From a virus, in the IMG/VR virus record IMGVR_UViG_3300036772_000110, positions 1 to 39,872 of that record: DNA of 39,872 nucleotides; one strand, written 5' to 3'. The notes below the pieces were generated by a model. The model was not told the DNA's origin. It searched no databases and saw only the letters and a list, made by a program, of their open reading frames with translations. Shown here one piece after another: positions 1 through 39,872 of this stretch. The translations under genes and the position numbers were made by a program. Positions within the stretch are counted from its first letter, which is position 1, and each line of letters opens with the position of its first letter.

Positions 1-127
1 ATGCGGCACCGTCGATAACCCCAGCTTGATAGTTTGCGGTGGCCGTTAATCCTTTCACGGAGTTTACAGTTAGTTTTGTAGTTACGGGGAATGACGGCAG
101 TTCTATATGTTTGCGGCGTTCCATCCA
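1..127. repeat. Terminal overlap of a circular assembly
   Basis: Bases 1-127 recur exactly at 39746-39872, in direct orientation, at the two ends of the window. The repeat lies inside the parA reading frame, which continues without interruption when the ends are joined. The length of 127 bases is a common largest k-mer size in short-read assembly, so I read this as an assembly overlap of a circular (or circularly permuted) molecule rather than a biological terminal repeat. The unique genome would be 39,745 bp. Confidence 0.93.
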
Positions 128-268
128 ACGGTAGAGGCTCGCTTGTTCCTCGTCCATATCAAAACCCGCTACAGTGAAACCACGCTCCAGGAGTCGAACC
201 CCAACGGCGCGCGCTATGGCGGATTTAGTCACGCCGCCTTTTCCTGCCAGAATCGCAATCTTTAACAT
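1..268 (-). CDS. parA: ParA-family partition ATPase, N-terminal part (continues at right end)
   Basis: ParA/MinD-type P-loop ATPase for plasmid partition, read from ATG at 268 leftward across the circular join to a stop at 39369, giving 214 residues in all. The deviant Walker A KGGVTKS (residues 10-16) carries the signature lysine. A Walker A' region FDMDEEQAS follows at 36-44. The Walker B aspartate is probably in VIDGAA (about residue 86), in the right-end part. The short length without an N-terminal HTH fits type Ib ParF-like proteins. The next gene is a small RHH protein that overlaps its stop codon, matching a parF/parG-style operon. A palindrome array and a promoter lie directly upstream (302-349). 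Being split by the window edge is not a real truncation. Confidence 0.92.
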   Translation of the reverse strand, partial: MLKIAILAGKGGVTKSAIARAVGVRLLERGFTVAGFDMDEEQASLYRWMERRKHIELPSFPVTTKLTVNSVKGLTATANYQAGVIDGAA

Positions 269-301: not shown

Positions 302-349
302 AGATTACACGTAACATGTATTACATGCAATAGGTATTACATGTAATAC
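302..349 (-). promoter_or_regulatory. parA promoter with triple palindrome array (candidate parS/operator)
   Basis: Three abutting 16-bp units lie here: a perfect palindrome GTATTACATGTAATAC at 334-349, a near-perfect one at 318-333, and a degenerate one at 302-317. On the minus strand a promoter is embedded: -35 TTGCAT (325-330), 17-bp spacer, -10 TAATCT (302-307), directed at parA. Type Ib partition systems usually place their centromere/operator just upstream of parA, so this is the best parS candidate. Binding would cover the -35 and -10 and so should repress. Which protein binds is not shown by the sequence; the RHH protein at 39163-39372 is the first candidate. Confidence 0.75.
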
Positions 350-1281: not shown

Positions 1282-1679
1282 AAATCCCTCTCAATAGGCG
1301 CGGCAAAGTCGACGAGGTGATACTTTTCGCCGGGGCTTTTGCCGTTGTCTGCCAACAGTTCAAAGGTGGAGTGATAAGCACGCAGCCACAGGAACGCAGA
1401 TTCGCCGCGTTGCGCTTTCCAGATAATTTGACGGGTTGAGATACGTTTAACGGTATCGCCCGCCAGAGCGTCGCGCAGCGCACGCCTACACCATTGCTCC
1501 GCGTCGCGTCCTGGTTCGATGAGCGCACCTATCAAAACGTCGGTGATAAACGTAAACGCCTCGATAGCGTCTTGTAGGTTATCGTCGGCTGTTTTGGTTC
1601 GGTTAATGGCGCGCATTTCGGAAGTGGTAAGGCGGGGGAGTTTTCCCCGTCGTGATACGGGGTGACGGTTTTTAAACAC
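1278..1679 (-). CDS. Hypothetical protein in early operon
   Basis: A 133-residue soluble protein that I do not recognise. It is basic at the N-terminus (FKNRHPVSRRGK) and mostly helical by composition, with a single WCRR motif and no clear nuclease or zinc pattern. The start is GTG at 1679, inside the end of the small membrane-protein gene (8-base overlap); the stop overlaps the TTG start of the methylase-like gene. The tight overlaps on both sides make it a real gene of the early operon. Function cannot be inferred beyond its place among DNA-metabolism genes. Confidence 0.7.
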   Translation of the reverse strand: MFKNRHPVSRRGKLPRLTTSEMRAINRTKTADDNLQDAIEAFTFITDVLIGALIEPGRDAEQWCRRALRDALAGDTVKRISTRQIIWKAQRGESAFLWLRAYHSTFELLADNGKSPGEKYHLVDFAAPIERDF

Positions 1680-1872
1680 CTGCGGCCCCCGGATATGGAA
1701 AAGGAGAACCAGGGAAAGCTAGATCTTCATCGTTAGTTTTCGCCGGTGCGGGGTCTACCTTTTGCGGCGCTTCGGTTGGCTTTACGGCTTCGTATGTGCG
1801 CGGGGGCGCGTCATAGCTGGCGAGTACATAGCCCCCTAAAGCGCATAATGTTACAAGTAATATGTATTTCAT
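1672..1872 (-). CDS. Small membrane-anchored protein with proline-rich tail
   Basis: A 66-residue protein starting MKYILLVTLCALGGYVLASY: one N-terminal hydrophobic helix (signal anchor, or signal peptide with weak cleavage site). A Pro/Ala-rich tail of about 45 residues, probably periplasmic, follows. The ATG at 1872 sits 9 bases after AAGGAG. An in-frame ATG at 1911 (MTNTRLERKELYY...) also has the GGCGG..AACGATGAC junction cassette seen at other genes, so a 79-residue form is possible. A tandem palindrome of the genome-wide type covers the start codon at 1872. Not recognised as a known spanin or lipoprotein (no lipobox). Confidence 0.6.
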   Translation of the reverse strand: MKYILLVTLCALGGYVLASYDAPPRTYEAVKPTEAPQKVDPAPAKTNDEDLAFPGSPFPYPGAAGV

Positions 1873-10069: not shown

Positions 10070-11182
10070 TTATTTGTTTACCATCGCTTTCAGCTCGGAG
10101 ATCTGTTTTTCCAGCTCCGCGCCGTAATCTATCTGTTTAATCAACGCTTGCTGAAAACCGGCTAGGCTTTCGCTCATCGTTTCGATAACGGCGATCATGG
10201 AATGTCTTACCGCCAGTTCGTCAGCTTCTGCCGCTTGCTTTAATAGCAGTTCGGCGCGTTTCCGCAGCTCGTCGCCAGCGCTAAACGGTTTAGTCAGTGG
10301 CATAAGTTCACTAATCGGGGACAGATTCACCGCCGCCGGTTGAGTGATATCAGCCCGAGCGGGGTTAATCACCGGTGGAAGCGGCAAATCTGGATCAGGT
10401 TGAATAGGTTCCGCAGTTTTAAGCAGTTTGGGCGCGGTTTCTTCCTCTTCATCGGCGGTATCTGACATTAGCCGCGCTGCTTCAATTTGGGCCAAGCGTT
10501 CTTGCTCGGGCGTCAAAGGTTGCAACATTGGCGCAGCATTGCTTTTAGCCGGTGGGGTCGGATTGTTCTCAATTTTAATTGCCGGATGAGATGCGTTTGT
10601 ATTAATCACATTCAACTGAGGAGAAGAGCGACCAGGAGTAAACTTAATTTCTTCATCCGGCGGTAATAACCCTAAACTAGCGTTAGTTATTGCGTCAACA
10701 CCTAATAATTGAATCGCTTTAATATCATGTGCGCGCGCGGCATCTTCCGCTGTAGGGAAAGAACCTACATAAATCTGTTTCTTATGAACCTGAATATAAG
10801 ACATAAACGGATTTATTTTAGATTTAGGGTTGGCACTAACACCCCTAAACCCATATTTACCCACTGGGCGTGTATTTTTTTGGGGTTTATGCTTCTCTGC
10901 TTTACTTATCTTTTCACGAATAGCCAAAACTACACGATCTTTTAAATATCCTAACGCTTGATTTGTGTCAGCATTAGGAACGTGCGTCGTTAAAAACTCG
11001 TCGTAAGCGTAAGCGGCTTCCTCGGCGGTATCATAACCGCCTTTTGTCACCCTGCCGAGCGTGGGGCCGACGTACTCCCAGGAAAAGCATGATCCCGTTC
11101 GTTTAACGCCGTTGTAGCCTCTTCCCGTAGCCCAAACGTTTGCGCCTTGATTGCGGCGCGTAACTTCTTTGGTTTTAGCCAT
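10070..11182 (-). CDS. Tandem AP2-domain DNA-binding protein with coiled-coil tail
   Basis: A 370-residue protein with two AP2/ERF-like domains. The first is at about 22-74 (GYNGVKRTGSCFSWEY..., YDTAEEAAYAYDEF). The second, at about 109-167, is canonical: KYGFRGVSANP, SYIQVHKKQIYVGSF, TAEDAARAHDIKAI, ITN. A long Pro/Ala-rich acidic linker follows, then a C-terminal helical or coiled-coil segment (about 300-370). In phages AP2 domains usually sit in HNH homing endonucleases; no HNH motif is visible here. It therefore looks like a sequence-specific regulator or nucleoid-type protein. The middle of the gene is clearly richer in A+T than its neighbours, suggesting separate ancestry. Overlaps the upstream 71-residue gene by 8 bases. 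Confidence 0.8.
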   Translation of the reverse strand: MAKTKEVTRRNQGANVWATGRGYNGVKRTGSCFSWEYVGPTLGRVTKGGYDTAEEAAYAYDEFLTTHVPNADTNQALGYLKDRVVLAIREKISKAEKHKPQKNTRPVGKYGFRGVSANPKSKINPFMSYIQVHKKQIYVGSFPTAEDAARAHDIKAIQLLGVDAITNASLGLLPPDEEIKFTPGRSSPQLNVINTNASHPAIKIENNPTPPAKSNAAPMLQPLTPEQERLAQIEAARLMSDTADEEEETAPKLLKTAEPIQPDPDLPLPPVINPARADITQPAAVNLSPISELMPLTKPFSAGDELRKRAELLLKQAAEADELAVRHSMIAVIETMSESLAGFQQALIKQIDYGAELEKQISELKAMVNK

Positions 11183-11390
11183 TGGTATGTTTCTCGCTTA
11201 ATATCATTAAATGCCGCGTACTTATTACGCGTGTTTTTCGGGTCTTTGCCCTAATTGCCTGGCTTAATACCGGATGATGAGACACCGGTACGCCAGTTAT
11301 TTTATCGACTACTGAAAAGAACAAACCTAGATTTATTAATCTGCCGATCTCTTTCTTTACTACTAACTCATCACGCAATTTAAAAGCCAT
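11175..11390 (-). CDS. Small protein, first gene of AP2 operon
   Basis: A 71-residue basic protein, MAFKLRDELVVKKEIGRLIN... with a hydrophobic centre (LGLFFSVVDKITG) and an Arg/Lys/Thr-rich C-terminal half. No HTH or RHH pattern is certain. It starts at 11390 facing the divergent control region and overlaps the AP2 gene, so it is a candidate regulator by position only. The ribosome site is poor. Confidence 0.5.
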   Translation of the reverse strand: MAFKLRDELVVKKEIGRLINLGLFFSVVDKITGVPVSHHPVLSQAIRAKTRKTRVISTRHLMILSEKHTNG

Positions 11391-11899
11391 ATTTGTATAC
11401 GCCTTCGGGCTACTTTCTGAAATGCGGGGCGAACTACTCCCCGCACTTTAAAAGCAGCTCTAGTGTGATAGTTCAGCAGTTTATTATTAAAGAGCATCTT
11501 CGACAGGAAACAACCAGGCACCTCGACGAGTTAATTATTCGCCTTCGCCGTTCTTGTTTTCGCACGATTACCTAAAATACTGCGCCAAAAACTAACAATT
11601 GGCAATACTGATCAAGCGTAATTTATTATTTGCGTATTTGTAGTTTAAGTTACCGATCAATATTTAATTTATGTTAAACCTGATCATTATTAATAACTTA
11701 GCGCAAGTTTTTAGAATTGAAATCCGCTTTCTTTTCGTCGCAATTTAACAAATCGCCCACAATTTGATCGTTTACTTATTAGAAAACGTGACCTATTACA
11801 AGTTTGCATATTCATGCAGACCGAAAATAAATCGTTAGCCACGGCTAGCCGCTTTCGCCAAAATAGGCCGTCCATGAATCACCCTGGACAGCGGATAAC
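11391..11899. other. AT-rich divergent control region
   Basis: About 510 bp between the leftward AP2 operon and the rightward primase gene. It holds an inverted repeat GCGGGG...CCCCGC around 11421-11442 and TGATCA or GATCA motifs at 11609, 11655 and 11681 (TGATCG at 11765) in very AT-rich DNA. A TGCAT-ATTC-ATGCA inverted repeat (11805-11818) overlaps a possible plus-strand -35 TTGCAT (11804-11809), with a weak -10 ATAAAT 17 bp on. AAAATAGGCCG (11860-11870) recurs at 16436-16446 before the late leader. Gene orientation diverges here, so it is a natural place for the early/lysogenic switch and possibly the replication origin. I see no convincing gene in it. Confidence 0.5.
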
Positions 11900-14140
11900 A
11901 TGAGTACGGCTATCTGGCAGCACTTCGCGGCGGCGTTCGGCCCCGCTAACCTGGTGCCTATCGCGTTAGCACGCGAGGGCATCAAGACAGAATTACCAGC
12001 GGGCGTTGTTGGCAAAGTCCCCTCTGTTTACAACACGCGCGGCGAGATCGTCGGCTTCAAAGATTGGCAAAAGTGCCGCGTCACACTGCGTAACATAGAA
12101 CAATGGCAGTGTGACAGCCGCTACGGGTTCGGCGTTATCCTGGGCCAGCCAGTAACGAACCTCGGCGGCGCGGTTGCCGTGTGCGTCGACGTAGACACCG
12201 AAAACACCGAATATCAAACCATTGTCGAGAACCTGATCCGCAAGGCTGTAGGCACCGCGAAGGTTGCGCAGCGTGTACGCACGAACAGCCAGCGCCGCGC
12301 CTACGTGTTAGCCGTCCTGCCGCGCGAAGGTGACGACGAAAAGCCGATCACTAAACGCGTGCTTACCCTTCGCAAAGGCGTAAAAGCCCACGGTATCAAG
12401 GGCGAGGCCGTCGAGATCCTGGCCCACGGTCAGCAGTTCGCCGCGTTCGGCGTCCATCCATCCGGCGTTGAACTGGAATGGTTAGACGGCCCCGCCGACA
12501 GCCTAACCGCCGACGTGTGCCTACCTTGTCCCGCGCTGCTTAGTATGAGTGCGGGCGAGTTCGACAAACTGCTATCTGATATCGCCGTTGCGCTCCCCAT
12601 CCTTGCCGATTCACAGAAGAACCCACGCCGCGCACGCGGTAAGCGTGGCGAAGTGGTCAAGCCTGATGACGTGGCGTTATACCTCGACGCCAACGGCTAT
12701 ACGCTGGAGATCGGCGCAGACGGTCAGCGTTATATTCGATCCCCTTTCGAAGATGAATACACCACCGAACAGACAGACCGTGATACTAGTGTGTCGTACT
12801 TCCTGCCCGGCACCTGCGGTTATGAGCAAGGCCACTTTGTAAGCCTCCACGCTAGCGACGCCGACCGCACAGACGCCGATTTTCTGGACGCTATCGGCTT
12901 TGTGGCCTCACAGTTTGACGCGTTCCCCGTCGAAATGGAGCAGGGGAAACCCGTTGCGCCTAGCTTTGAGCGTGATAAACACGGCAAGGCAGAGCCAACA
13001 GTGCCAAACGTGCTAGCAGCGTTGGGCGCGCCGCGTTGGTTGGGCCAGGATGTGCGCTTTGATGCCTTTGCCGGTGAGCTAGTGATCGGCGGCGCGGGCG
13101 CGTGGCGTTCGTTCCGCGATACGGATTACACTTGGCTACGTGCCACGCTCGAGGGCTTAGGGTTTAAGCCGGTAGGCCGTGAGCTAATCCGCGATGCCGT
13201 CGCCGCCGTTGCGGAGATCCGCACAATCGACACCGCGCAAGAATGGCTAAACAGCTTGAAATGGGACGGCGTAAAACGCCTTGCCGACTTCCTGCCGCGT
13301 TACTTCCGCACTGCCGATAACGATTACACGCGCGCCGTGTCGCTTTACATGTGGACGGCGCAAGCGGGGCGCGTGCTCAAACCAGGCTGTAAAGCCGACA
13401 TGATGCCGATATTCATCGGTGATCAGGGTTGCGGCAAATCTACCGGCGTTGCGGCGCTATCGCCCGCCGTTCGTTTCTTCTCGGAATTATCATTCAACGA
13501 TAAAGACGCCGACGCAGCGCGCAAGATACGCGGCGTTTTAGTCGGGGAATACGGCGAAATGAACGGGCTACGCGGGCGCGCTATCGAAGCCATTAAGCAA
13601 TATGTAACGTGTACGAGTGATAAATGGGTCGCTAAGTATCAAGAGCACGCGACGCAGTATGATCGCCGTTGTGTGTTCTATGGCACGTCGAACGATACCG
13701 ACTTGCTAGACGATTCCACCGGTAACCGCCGATGGTTGCCCATCGAATGCGGCGCGGTCGATGTTGCCGCCATCAAAGCCGATTGTGCGCAGTTGTGGGC
13801 CGAAGCCCGCGAGCTATTCAAGCGCAAGGGCGTACAGTACACGACCGCCGCGCAGCTTGCGCCAGCGATACACGACGCTTTCCGCGACGTTGACCCTTTC
13901 GAACTCCTTCTTAGCGAGTGGCTGTCTACTCCTTGCGAGCTGGACGGCACCACGCCAGCAGACAGCGAAGCGCTAACTACTACTCAAGTATTGACCACTA
14001 TCGGTAAAGAGTGGGGCTTGAAGGTAGACCGTAGCGGGCAAATAAGAGTCGGCAAGGTACTAAAAGCGCTTGGCTTCCTACGGTTTCGCAAATTTCACAA
14101 CGGTTCGCTTATTTGGGCGTACAAAAAACAATCTAAATAA
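11900..14140 (+). CDS. Prim-Pol/VapE-type primase-helicase
   Basis: A 746-residue fusion. The N-terminal 200 residues resemble a bifunctional primase-polymerase: GFGVILG (76-82), VCVDVD (94-99) with paired aspartates, and GVHPSGVELEW (184-194). The C-terminal part (about 380-700) is a virulence-associated-E type SF3-like ATPase: LNSLKWDGVKRL, Walker A GDQGCGKST (507-515), Walker B-like LVGEYGE (547-553) and the conserved GTSNDTDLLDDSTGNRRW (595-612). Such proteins prime and unwind at phage or satellite origins. It is likely the replication initiator of this episome, acting at a nearby origin. It faces away from the other replication genes, which lie on the minus strand. Confidence 0.92.
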   Translation: MSTAIWQHFAAAFGPANLVPIALAREGIKTELPAGVVGKVPSVYNTRGEIVGFKDWQKCRVTLRNIEQWQCDSRYGFGVILGQPVTNLGGAVAVCVDVDTENTEYQTIVENLIRKAVGTAKVAQRVRTNSQRRAYVLAVLPREGDDEKPITKRVLTLRKGVKAHGIKGEAVEILAHGQQFAAFGVHPSGVELEWLDGPADSLTADVCLPCPALLSMSAGEFDKLLSDIAVALPILADSQKNPRRARGKRGEVVKPDDVALYLDANGYTLEIGADGQRYIRSPFEDEYTTEQTDRDTSVSYFLPGTCGYEQGHFVSLHASDADRTDADFLDAIGFVASQFDAFPVEMEQGKPVAPSFERDKHGKAEPTVPNVLAALGAPRWLGQDVRFDAFAGELVIGGAGAWRSFRDTDYTWLRATLEGLGFKPVGRELIRDAVAAVAEIRTIDTAQEWLNSLKWDGVKRLADFLPRYFRTADNDYTRAVSLYMWTAQAGRVLKPGCKADMMPIFIGDQGCGKSTGVAALSPAVRFFSELSFNDKDADAARKIRGVLVGEYGEMNGLRGRAIEAIKQYVTCTSDKWVAKYQEHATQYDRRCVFYGTSNDTDLLDDSTGNRRWLPIECGAVDVAAIKADCAQLWAEARELFKRKGVQYTTAAQLAPAIHDAFRDVDPFELLLSEWLSTPCELDGTTPADSEALTTTQVLTTIGKEWGLKVDRSGQIRVGKVLKALGFLRFRKFHNGSLIWAYKKQSK

Positions 14141-14978: not shown

Positions 14979-15827
14979 CTAGACCGTGAGTCTTAGCGCG
15001 CTGTTTATTAGTTGGTTGCGCTTGCCTGGGGCGACGTTGGAATAGTTGCCGGTGAAGAAGGGTTGAAACATATCTTTAAGCAGGTTTATTTCAGAGATAG
15101 ATTTGCCAGTCTTGCCAGCCAGGGCGACAGCATGACGGCCCGCCAGTTGCAGCAGCACGACGGCAACGGCTTCGAGTTTAGTTTCTGCTTCGTCGTATGC
15201 CTCTTCGGTGCCGGTTTCGTCTGCGGCATCGCACAGTGCCTGATATGAAGCCTCATGCGCAGCGGTGTAGCGTTTTTGAGCAGCAAACAAGGCTTTAACG
15301 CCTTGCGCCTTGTATGTTTCATCGGTGGCGTTGTTCAAGGCTTTTACTTCGTCGTTACCGACGGCGATCAGCAGAGTAGCCGCGCGAGCGGGGGAGATAC
15401 CGGCGGCGGTTGCGATACGTTCCGCTTTTGCTTCGCGCTCAATTCTAGCCACGCGGCAAGCCTCGTTACGTTCGAACTGTAGATGATAGTCGGACGGGAA
15501 GCGCTCCGCGTCCTCAAGGATAGCCGCACAGTGTGCGCGGGCGATCTTGCTTAACTCTTCGCGCATGTTATCCAGGGTTTCGACCAGCAGATGACAGCGA
15601 CGCACAAAGTCAGATTTCGCGCGGCAATCCATCGCTTGCCATAAACATTCCTTAACCTCTTCGATGTCTACACCTTCCACGATAGGGAACAAGGTAGAAG
15701 CGCCAGATACTGCGAGCGTTACCTCAGCCTTTGCAGATTTCAGGGTTGCGCCGGTGCCTACACACTCAGCCACGTAAGAAGCCAGTTTATGGGTGTATGT
15801 GATTGTTGCAGCGTTCAATGTAGTCAT
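14979..15827 (-). CDS. Hypothetical Ala-rich helical protein
   Basis: A 282-residue protein, alanine-rich and mostly helical, that I do not recognise. It has no signal peptide or membrane helix. It contains a segment with HTH flavour (AERIATAAGISPARAATLLIAV, about 135-156), but no complete DNA-binding fold is certain. GAGG stands before ATG 15827. It is the only minus-strand gene in the 11.9-37.9 kb plus-strand arm and has its own promoter (-35 TTGCAT, -10 GATTAT) inside the shared palindrome array. Control by the same protein as parA suggests expression tied to the plasmid/lytic decision; a prophage-stage function is possible. Confidence 0.6.
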   Translation of the reverse strand: MTTLNAATITYTHKLASYVAECVGTGATLKSAKAEVTLAVSGASTLFPIVEGVDIEEVKECLWQAMDCRAKSDFVRRCHLLVETLDNMREELSKIARAHCAAILEDAERFPSDYHLQFERNEACRVARIEREAKAERIATAAGISPARAATLLIAVGNDEVKALNNATDETYKAQGVKALFAAQKRYTAAHEASYQALCDAADETGTEEAYDEAETKLEAVAVVLLQLAGRHAVALAGKTGKSISEINLLKDMFQPFFTGNYSNVAPGKRNQLINSALRLTV

Positions 15828-15887: not shown

Positions 15888-15935
15888 ATAATCTCATAAA
15901 GTTGTATTACATGCAATACATATTACATGTAATAC
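15888..15935 (-). promoter_or_regulatory. Divergent promoter with tandem palindromes (282-aa gene / endolysin)
   Basis: Two abutting 16-bp palindromes, GTATTACATGCAATAC (15904-15919) and ATATTACATGTAATAC (15920-15935). A minus-strand promoter has -35 TTGCAT (15911-15916), 17-bp spacer and -10 GATTAT (15888-15893), the same -35 and spacing as at parA. To the right the array ends 21 bases before the endolysin ATG, and TTATAA at about 15938-15943 could be a plus-strand -10. Binding should control both genes. Confidence 0.7.
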
Positions 15936-15956: not shown

Positions 15957-16382
15957 ATGGAAAAGTTCGCACTAGGCGCGACAAGCCGCGCAAACCTGGC
16001 GGGCGTTCATCCTATCTTGCGTGAAATTATCGAACGGGCAATTCAGATCACCTCGCAAGATTTCCGCGTAACCGAGGGGCTACGGTCGTACGCACGACAA
16101 GAGCAGCTCTTCAAAGCAAAGCTAACCAAGACCATGAACAGCCGCCACCTATCCGGCTATGCCGTCGACCTGGTGCCGGTTGGCGTTAACGATGTGTGGA
16201 ACCGTAACCGCGCTGATGTATTGGCGGCATGGTTGGCGGTGTCTGATGCCGTTCACCAGGCAGCAGCGGAGAGCAAGATCACCATTCGTTGGGGCGGCGA
16301 CTTCAACGGCGACGGGTTCGGCGTAGGTAATGACGATTGGGATTTACCACACTTTGAGCTACCGATACGCAACTACCCCTAA
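15957..16382 (+). CDS. M15-family peptidoglycan endopeptidase (endolysin)
   Basis: A 141-residue L-alanyl-D-glutamate peptidase of the VanY/M15C kind. Zinc ligands are visible as SRHLSGYAVDL (62-72, His64 and Asp71) and DLPHFEL (129-135, His132), with WGGDFN at 112-117. It lacks a signal peptide, so it needs the holin encoded at 31705-32007 to reach the wall. GTGGAG precedes the ATG. The gene is far from the holin and has a palindrome array in front of it, so lysin expression seems separately controlled. Confidence 0.93.
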   Translation: MEKFALGATSRANLAGVHPILREIIERAIQITSQDFRVTEGLRSYARQEQLFKAKLTKTMNSRHLSGYAVDLVPVGVNDVWNRNRADVLAAWLAVSDAVHQAAAESKITIRWGGDFNGDGFGVGNDDWDLPHFELPIRNYP

Positions 16383-16769: not shown

Positions 16770-16801
16770 GTATTACACGTAATACATATTACTAAATTAC
16801 A
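16770..16801 (+). promoter_or_regulatory. Tandem palindrome upstream of virion operon
   Basis: Perfect GTATTACACGTAATAC (16770-16785) followed directly by degenerate ATATTACTAAATTACA (16786-16801), preceded by AAT. It lies 260 bp upstream of the first virion gene and has the same order and orientation relative to the downstream gene as the other four sites. Confidence 0.7.
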
Positions 16802-37930: not shown

Positions 37931-38293
37931 TTACAGACTCAAATCCAGCGGGAACGATTTAAACATTTGATATGTTGCATCATCGGGGAACGGGGGAAAC
38001 TTCGTATTCCATGCCGCTTGTGTTGCCGCGCTACAAAGGGTTTTATCCCCCTTTTCTACTTTCGCGTTTGTCAAAGCAGCATTACCGCCGAAAGATAACC
38101 GCAATGTGCAAGATTGCCCTTTATAGTTTTGCATGTCAGGAAATGCGCCGGTGAACGCCATTTTTGCGCTATCAATCCATGAGTACGCTGCATTATTTGA
38201 TTTAGTAACTGCCATCGAGTGATCGTAATCCTCGTTTGCCAATGCGTTAAATGAAACGGTAATCATGGCCCCTGCTATCAATAATCTTTTCAT
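37931..38293 (-). CDS. Secreted stand-alone TolA domain III
   Basis: A 120-residue protein with a cleavable signal peptide (MKRLLIAGAMITVSFNALA, cut after residue 19), then a complete TolA C-terminal domain: YSWIDSAKMAFTGAF, NYKGQSCTLRLSFGG, KGDKTLCSAA, and DDATYQMFKSFPLDLSL. Two cysteines (62 and 87) have the same 24-residue spacing as the disulphide pair of E. coli TolA domain III. TolA's membrane anchor and long helix are absent, so the product should float in the periplasm. The host domain III is the handle used by group A colicins and filamentous phage g3p, and contacts the Tol-Pal system. Either exclusion of competitors or outer-membrane weakening is plausible. GAGGG precedes ATG 38293; a palindrome array lies directly upstream. 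Confidence 0.85.
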   Translation of the reverse strand: MKRLLIAGAMITVSFNALANEDYDHSMAVTKSNNAAYSWIDSAKMAFTGAFPDMQNYKGQSCTLRLSFGGNAALTNAKVEKGDKTLCSAATQAAWNTKFPPFPDDATYQMFKSFPLDLSL

Positions 38294-38305
38294 CACACCC
38301 TCAAT

Positions 38306-38337
38306 AGTAATACTGTAATAAGTATTTCATGTAATAC
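38306..38337 (-). promoter_or_regulatory. Tandem palindrome upstream of TolA-III gene
   Basis: Minus strand: GTATTACATGAAATAC (38322-38337) then degenerate TTATTACAGTATTACT (38306-38321), ending 12 bases before the ATG. It lies between the terminator of the upstream operon and the gene, so any promoter of this gene must overlap it. A possible -10 TACTAT overlaps the distal end of the second unit; no strong -35 is visible, so either repression or activation is possible. Confidence 0.72.
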
Positions 38338-38361
38338 AAAAAAGCCCCATTAAAGGGGCTT
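38337..38361 (-). terminator. Terminator after 94-aa membrane protein gene
   Basis: Minus strand AAGCCCC / GGGGCTT stem and T6. The TAA stop of the upstream gene lies in its loop and the palindrome array begins right after it. Confidence 0.9.
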
Positions 38362-39162: not shown

Positions 39163-39372
39163 TTACTTAATCAATGGGTTTGCAGCCTTCCAAAGCTCGA
39201 AAGCCTCTTCAAGAATTTCACCCTGTGACTTGTCTGTATAAAACGCGGCTTCTTTCAATTCACGTTTCATTGTTTCCGAAATACGGAAAGATTGCGGCTT
39301 GGTTTGTCGTGCGCCTACGCGCTCTAATGCAGCCCCGCCAATCGGCAGATCTTCACTATCGAAATCACTCAT
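39163..39372 (-). CDS. Ribbon-helix-helix partition partner (ParG/CopG-like)
   Basis: A 69-residue protein. A flexible N-terminus (about 1-25, MSDFDSEDLPIGGAAL...) precedes a ribbon-helix-helix fold: strand PQSFRIS (about 26-32), helix ETMKRELKEAAFYT, turn DKSQ, helix GEILEEAFELWKAAN. The start ATG overlaps the parA stop (ATGA). Small size, unstructured N-terminus and parA overlap are the hallmarks of ParG-type centromere-binding partners, which also repress their own operon and stimulate ParA's ATPase. It is the leading candidate to bind the GTATTAC palindromes, since RHH dimers read short palindromic or tandem half-sites. Confidence 0.82.
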   Translation of the reverse strand: MSDFDSEDLPIGGAALERVGARQTKPQSFRISETMKRELKEAAFYTDKSQGEILEEAFELWKAANPLIK

Positions 39373-39872
39373 GTACTTTTAACCTCTAACGCTCGATCAA
39401 TTATGCTATCTATCATTTTAGCGGCTAACGCAGCCAGGCGCGGGAATGGAACCTCGCAGATAGATAACCCTCTGTCTTGTGCCTTTCCGATAGACTTAAA
39501 GCGCGGTGCATAGCCAGCGGCGATAGACACGCCCAACGGCGCGAAATAGTCGCGGGCTTCGGTTTCGTCGACGCTGGACTCTTCAACGCCCGAAAGCGCT
39601 ATACAGATCCGCGAAGCGGGAACGCCTTTCTCTAGCAAACTTTTCACTAGTCGGCGCGCGCTGCCTTTATCGTCCAGGCTGTAGGATGTTGGGATAACTA
39701 GCAGGTCTGCAAACTGCGCAAACTCCAGGGTAGAGCGCGCGGCGTATGCGGCACCGTCGATAACCCCAGCTTGATAGTTTGCGGTGGCCGTTAATCCTTT
39801 CACGGAGTTTACAGTTAGTTTTGTAGTTACGGGGAATGACGGCAGTTCTATATGTTTGCGGCGTTCCATCCA
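39369..39872 (-). CDS. parA: ParA-family partition ATPase, C-terminal part (start at position 268)
   Basis: Remaining part of the ParA described at 1-268. It contains the Walker B-like AGVIDGAAYAARS (about residues 83-95), FADLLVIPTSYSLDD (about 101-115) and ARRLVKSLLEKGVPASRICIALSG. The frame runs off the right edge only because the circle was opened here. The 127 bases 39746-39872 duplicate the left edge. ATGA junction with the RHH gene. Confidence 0.92.
   Translation of the reverse strand, partial: WMERRKHIELPSFPVTTKLTVNSVKGLTATANYQAGVIDGAAYAARSTLEFAQFADLLVIPTSYSLDDKGSARRLVKSLLEKGVPASRICIALSGVEESSVDETEARDYFAPLGVSIAAGYAPRFKSIGKAQDRGLSICEVPFPRLAALAAKMIDSIIDRALEVKST

Follow-up and report, generated by a model that had tools for sequence, protein, structure and literature searches.

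Partition systems with several sites

Partition sites are commonly pictured as a single locus beside the par genes. The RHH protein omega of plasmid pSM19035 has six parS sites over three promoters, and its ParA is reported to need at least four contiguous repeats for full activation (PMC9499535). SegB of Sulfolobales is another RHH protein, with scattered chromosomal sites (PMC12284271). Both are precedents for a ParG-type protein with several sites, which the original prediction on this DNA had taken to be new. N15, named there as a precedent for scattered centromeres with a non-RHH protein, does have four IR sites (IR1-4) for its F-type SopB (PMC7205306). In addition, KorB (RK2) and StbA (R388) are partition-linked proteins that repress several plasmid promoters (PMC11790492, PMC3937220). 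RHH centromere proteins with several sites are thus already known, while for RHH arrays scattered across phage-plasmids no description was found in open-access full texts, an absence which is not proof of novelty.

Genome form and lifestyle

The window, the whole stretch of DNA analysed here (39,872 nt), covers the full length of IMG/VR record IMGVR_UViG_3300036772_000110. Positions 39746-39872 are a copy of 1-127, and this terminal repeat of 127 bp suggests a circular record, with a circle of 39,745 bp as had been predicted.

The portal was 53% identical to the portal of Yersinia phages YeP4-6, and terminase and tail homologues were also revealed on the virion side; the maintenance side was composed of parAB and mazEF. 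The window gave no match to tyrosine integrase (PF00589) or to a CI/Cro-type HTH_3 repressor, and HTH ParB (PF17762) was also without match in it, with the control matched in 9 genomes. Since integrase, HTH_3 and HTH ParB were not found, while parA, a 69-aa RHH gene and mazEF were present, the virus is probably a phage-plasmid, and its prophage would exist in a plasmid state. YeP5, Alcaligenes phage Piluca and an Acinetobacter phage relative each had a CI-type repressor together with an integrase or recombinase. An AP2-domain protein of 370 aa, kin to phage HNH endonucleases, was encoded at 10070-11182; its gene occupies the position where relatives have the CI-type repressor and adjoins the early control region (11390-11900).

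ParA and its RHH partner

The partition genes were located across the circle joint:

1 to 268, minus strand: parA, N-terminal part (circular ORF across the joint; family alignment, ParF match)
39369 to 39745, minus strand: parA, remainder to the circle joint (214 aa in all)
39163 to 39372, minus strand: RHH protein, ParG-like, 69 aa, predicted centromere binder (family profile E=2e-10)

ParA carries KGGVTKS, a deviant Walker A motif, and the invariant columns common to its relatives, as a small ParA does. Over the aligned length it shared 28-38% of residues with ParAs from phage-plasmids and plasmids, and the ParA family profile matched ParF (E=1.6e-13). The 69-aa ORF begins at the end of parA, so that an RHH gene lies just downstream, and a repeat array (six 8-bp boxes, 302-349) lies upstream of parA, which is the arrangement of type Ib. 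Direct searches with the window RHH protein or ParA among viral contigs, and with ParA among genome contigs, confirmed no relatives; these were found only through the search with the ParA family alignment.

In the relatives, the gene after parA encoded a small RHH-like protein, whose family profile matched ParG weakly (E=0.054). Built without the window protein, the RHH family profile gave E=2e-10 to the 69-aa ORF, the sole significant match among 816 ORFs. The 69-aa protein was below the cut-off of Pfam RHH_1. The predicted structure has two helices after a disordered tail, and the nearest solved structures to this model were mostly RHH proteins with low scores. The RHH fold rests mainly on the profile match, because the structure search gave no match at Z>=5. 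At about 13-31% identity, the window RHH protein is distant from its relatives, and its short acidic tail is without the KGxPP motif common among them; the low identity and the missing motif were counted against reading the arrays as centromeres. The tail may contact ParA differently.

Five arrays of 8-bp boxes

The five palindromic sites were found exactly where they had been predicted. They are given here with the neighbouring genes:

302 to 349, unstranded: parS-like array at parA, made of six 8-bp boxes that alternate in orientation
1672 to 1872, minus strand: small putative membrane protein, 66 aa, start codon in array, no PHROG match
1848 to 1879, unstranded: four-box array; the small membrane protein likely starts inside it (ATG at 1872, minus strand)
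14979 to 15827, minus strand: 282-aa protein, divergent from the endolysin, no Pfam or PHROG match
15904 to 15935, unstranded: four-box array flanked by the 282-aa gene and the endolysin; the strongest one apart from parA
15957 to 16382, plus strand: M15-type endolysin (Pfam PF13539; phrog_465, E=3e-44)
16770 to 16801, unstranded: four-box array in the gap ahead of the virion leader gene (start 17055)
37931 to 38296, minus strand: secreted TolA C-terminal domain protein (Pfam PF06519, E=2e-13)
38306 to 38337, unstranded: four-box array, with an intrinsic terminator on one side and the TolA-domain gene on the other
38342 to 38361, minus strand: intrinsic-terminator-like stem, which stops just before the 38306-38337 array

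The sites are palindromic, as first described, and the stronger unit precedes the weaker one at four of the five, with one mismatch in each of the two units at 15904-15935. A box of 8 bp (GTATTACA) in alternating orientation describes the repeat better than the unit of 16 bp, with six boxes at parA and four at each of the other sites. Seven 16-mers within three mismatches of GTATTACATGTAATAC were present in the window, against 0.09 expected from dinucleotide shuffles. A scoring matrix trained on the parA array alone gave 38.9-46.1 to the other four sites, 15.0 to the next window position and at most 23.6 in 200 shuffled genomes. The palindromes are thus far above chance in a scan of the kind proposed with the original prediction.

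No comparable four-box array was found at any other locus in about 2.3 Mb of compared sequence. Lone 16-mers of the GTATTACATGTAATAC type in 32 viral loci were put down to chance, as none of these loci has a four-box array. That the arrays are chance or mobile repeats without a common binder is hardly credible: short repeats dispersed in intergenic DNA can arise in this way, but chance was excluded by the shuffles, the five sites share only the array sequence while their flanks are dissimilar, and arrays of other sequence with the equal 8-bp period accompany the same par genes elsewhere.

All five arrays were near gene starts. The matrix scan revealed none in the early control region (11390-11900), and none was inside the virion operon of the window, in contrast to Vibrio phages. 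A promoter-like TTGAAA-18-TAATAT on the minus strand stops 4 bp before the parA array, and because of this abutment par autoregulation is likely. The 1848-1879 array is by the small membrane protein gene as predicted, with the likely start codon (1872) inside the array, which would therefore be in the transcribed leader. A TATAAT abuts 15904-15935 on the minus strand (leftward). A promoter made of the two palindromes themselves (TTACAT-17-TAATAC) was rejected, its hexamers being poor sigma-70 matches with scores near background. From their position, 15904-15935 and 38306-38337 appear to be good operator candidates, and local repression might perhaps occur at two or three sites of the window. 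The TolA-domain gene, behind its own terminator-bounded array, is possibly a lysogenic-conversion (moron) gene.

Scattered arrays in relatives

Arrays with an 8-bp period were also present upstream of parA in the relatives, with a sequence specific to each record (TTTCTTTA, GCGTTATT, CGAATTAA, TATAAATA and others); about nine box types were counted by eye. In the pooled arrays, self-identity peaked at lag 8 (0.59), was intermediate at lags 4 and 12 (0.41) and stayed at 0.27-0.32 for the other lags to 15. Each whole record was searched with its own parA region as query. Six phage-plasmids with related ParA, read whole, had 5-10 sites, a few of which were weak or belonged to other repeats; shuffled regions found 0.07-0.67. 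When random windows of the same genomes served as queries, the means were 0.3-0.9, and isolated high counts occurred where such a query hit an array or another repeat. The best 18 of 80 IMG/VR loci with related ParA all had 2-7 sites (0-1.2 in shuffles); these span at most about 20 kb each and include several close relatives, so they are not 18 independent cases.

Dispersal was not limited to phage-plasmids. Two conjugative plasmids, which have the same kind of par genes as the phage-plasmids with arrays, had 5-6 sites, some of them between virB genes, and two mobilizable Halomonas plasmids had 2-3 sites, some weak or near par. In the conjugative plasmids, box arrays were located between T4SS genes, including virB9/virB10 (L149, 25740-25776 and 27509-27545; L148, 13658-13697). 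A second, unrelated palindrome, GTGACAGGTCAC, was observed in two Vibrio phage-plasmids (L066, 32217-32255; L067, 8849-8879), with one copy near parA and one elsewhere.

Scattered RHH-type arrays are, by these comparisons, a family-wide trait. The original proposal of a ParG-like RHH protein as the binder gains support by comparison, as the family goes with 8-bp box arrays both at parA and elsewhere. The array sequence also appears to track the RHH sequence: RHH distance was correlated with array-spectrum distance (Mantel r=0.685, 0 of 2000 permutations), which supports rather than proves recognition, because shared ancestry inflates r.

Centromeres or operators

At parA, most relatives had a recognisable promoter (often TTGnnn-17-TATACT), with the array after it. 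Among the 125 dispersed non-parA arrays of the family, sigma-70 promoters at the array edge were not enriched over shuffled flanks (p=0.13, with a generic E. coli promoter matrix). According to the annotation tables, the dispersed arrays were almost always between co-directional genes, and a few ran into gene ends; in unannotated loci the gene contexts came from a simple ORF caller. In Vibrio and Aliivibrio phages they were often between consecutive virion genes. For three of these phages 11 of 20 arrays were in virion operons against about 38% of junctions, a hand-counted difference which was not significant (p=0.09). The median length of dispersed arrays was 34 bp, about four boxes, which was counted for centromeres as it matches the four-repeat minimum for full ParA activation in pSM19035 (PMC9499535).

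Distributed centromeres are favoured because promoters were not enriched, many arrays are inside operons and the median is about four boxes, and also because par genes are what the otherwise different replicons share (they were the selection criterion as well). The five sites of the window thus quite likely serve a type Ib partition system, similar to ParF/ParG, as distributed parS arrays. The original prediction gave one protein two roles; that of partition binder is supported by comparison, while a lytic and envelope regulon is not, given the 125 dispersed arrays without promoter enrichment. Distributed centromeres together with par autoregulation and local repression at a few sites are favoured over such a dedicated regulon.

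Binding, cooperativity, ParA engagement and repression are proposed here on grounds of sequence comparison. Dimers of the 69-aa RHH protein would bind contiguous 8-bp boxes cooperatively, and every array of four to six boxes would form a partition complex engaging ParA on the nucleoid, so that the circular prophage could be held at several points. As the parA array begins just past the promoter, RHH binding would also repress par. Bound arrays at 15904, 38306 and perhaps 1848 would overlap a promoter or leader, and the expression of the neighbouring genes would probably be lowered.

It is rather unlikely that the dispersed arrays are primarily operators, with the RHH protein silencing the endolysin region and the virion and envelope genes of the prophage, and with a centromere only at parA. 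The position of all five window arrays near gene starts, with none inside the virion operon, fits operators also and speaks against centromeres. The leftward TATAAT at 15904 agrees with this; at 38306 the terminator lies just before the array, and any promoter belonging to the TolA-domain gene itself would then need to overlap with the array. Repression of several promoters by a partition-linked protein is known from omega of pSM19035, KorB and StbA (PMC9499535, PMC11790492, PMC3937220). Against it, dispersed arrays lack promoter association across the family, many of them lie inside operons between co-directional genes, and the early control region has no array.

More doubtful still is that the RHH partition protein also keeps the prophage state, its scattered binding blocking lysis and virion transcription and so coupling partition with release. 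It could be a main repressor of the window phage, which is conceivable because no CI/Cro-type HTH_3 repressor was found, and the early control region without an array weighs this idea down. If true, a prophage-keeper RHH of this type would block T4SS genes in the conjugative relatives.

Another phage or host protein as binder (AP2-domain protein, 71-aa protein, MazE or a host repressor) is very improbable. Both the AP2-domain protein and MazE could plausibly bind DNA, and the AP2 gene is next to the early control region; but the same 8-bp architecture accompanies ParA/RHH pairs in many unrelated replicons, the array sequence varies with the RHH sequence, and the AP2 gene has its kin among HNH endonucleases. 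Whether an RNA polymerase encoded by the phage reads the sites was weakly tested: PF00940 had no match, and its control was also unmatched.

With distributed centromeres as the preferred reading, the scattered sites are probably anchoring sites for inheritance and may control a few genes. In some conjugative plasmids and a widespread group of phage-plasmids, short RHH-type centromere arrays appear to be spread across the replicon. This raises the questions what a small replicon gains from having many centromeres, and whether vertical inheritance is balanced against phage or conjugative release by the partition complex as well. The common 8-bp period, with a box that tracks the RHH protein, offers a way to predict parS sites of unstudied phage-plasmids from sequence only.

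Comparison with known partition systems

N15 is like the window in being a prophage plasmid with several centromere sites (PMC7205306), while its SopB is an F-type HTH protein rather than RHH, and no such protein was present in the window. KorB and StbA would resemble the window RHH protein in function, and KorB is a CTP-dependent sliding-clamp ParB. SegAB shares a ParA-type ATPase, an RHH protein and multiple scattered sites with the window, but it belongs to an archaeal chromosome, and its sites are mainly intragenic with a palindromic motif instead of box arrays (PMC12284271).

TP228 ParF/ParG and pMET1 ParFG have, like the window, a type Ib ParA and an RHH partner in one operon with upstream repeats (PMC2262945). 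The repeats described there are upstream of parF, and the boxes of the window are unrelated to them in sequence. The tail of the window RHH protein differs as well.

In pSM19035 delta/omega, as in the window, a small ParA is paired with an RHH centromere protein, the short boxes are contiguous and of mixed orientation, and several parS sites per replicon overlap the par promoters (PMC9499535). Box length is 7 bp in pSM19035 and 8 bp in the window, and the replicons are a Gram-positive plasmid and a phage-plasmid, respectively. The six sites of pSM19035 overlap three promoters, whereas most dispersed arrays of the phage-plasmid family are not linked to promoters.
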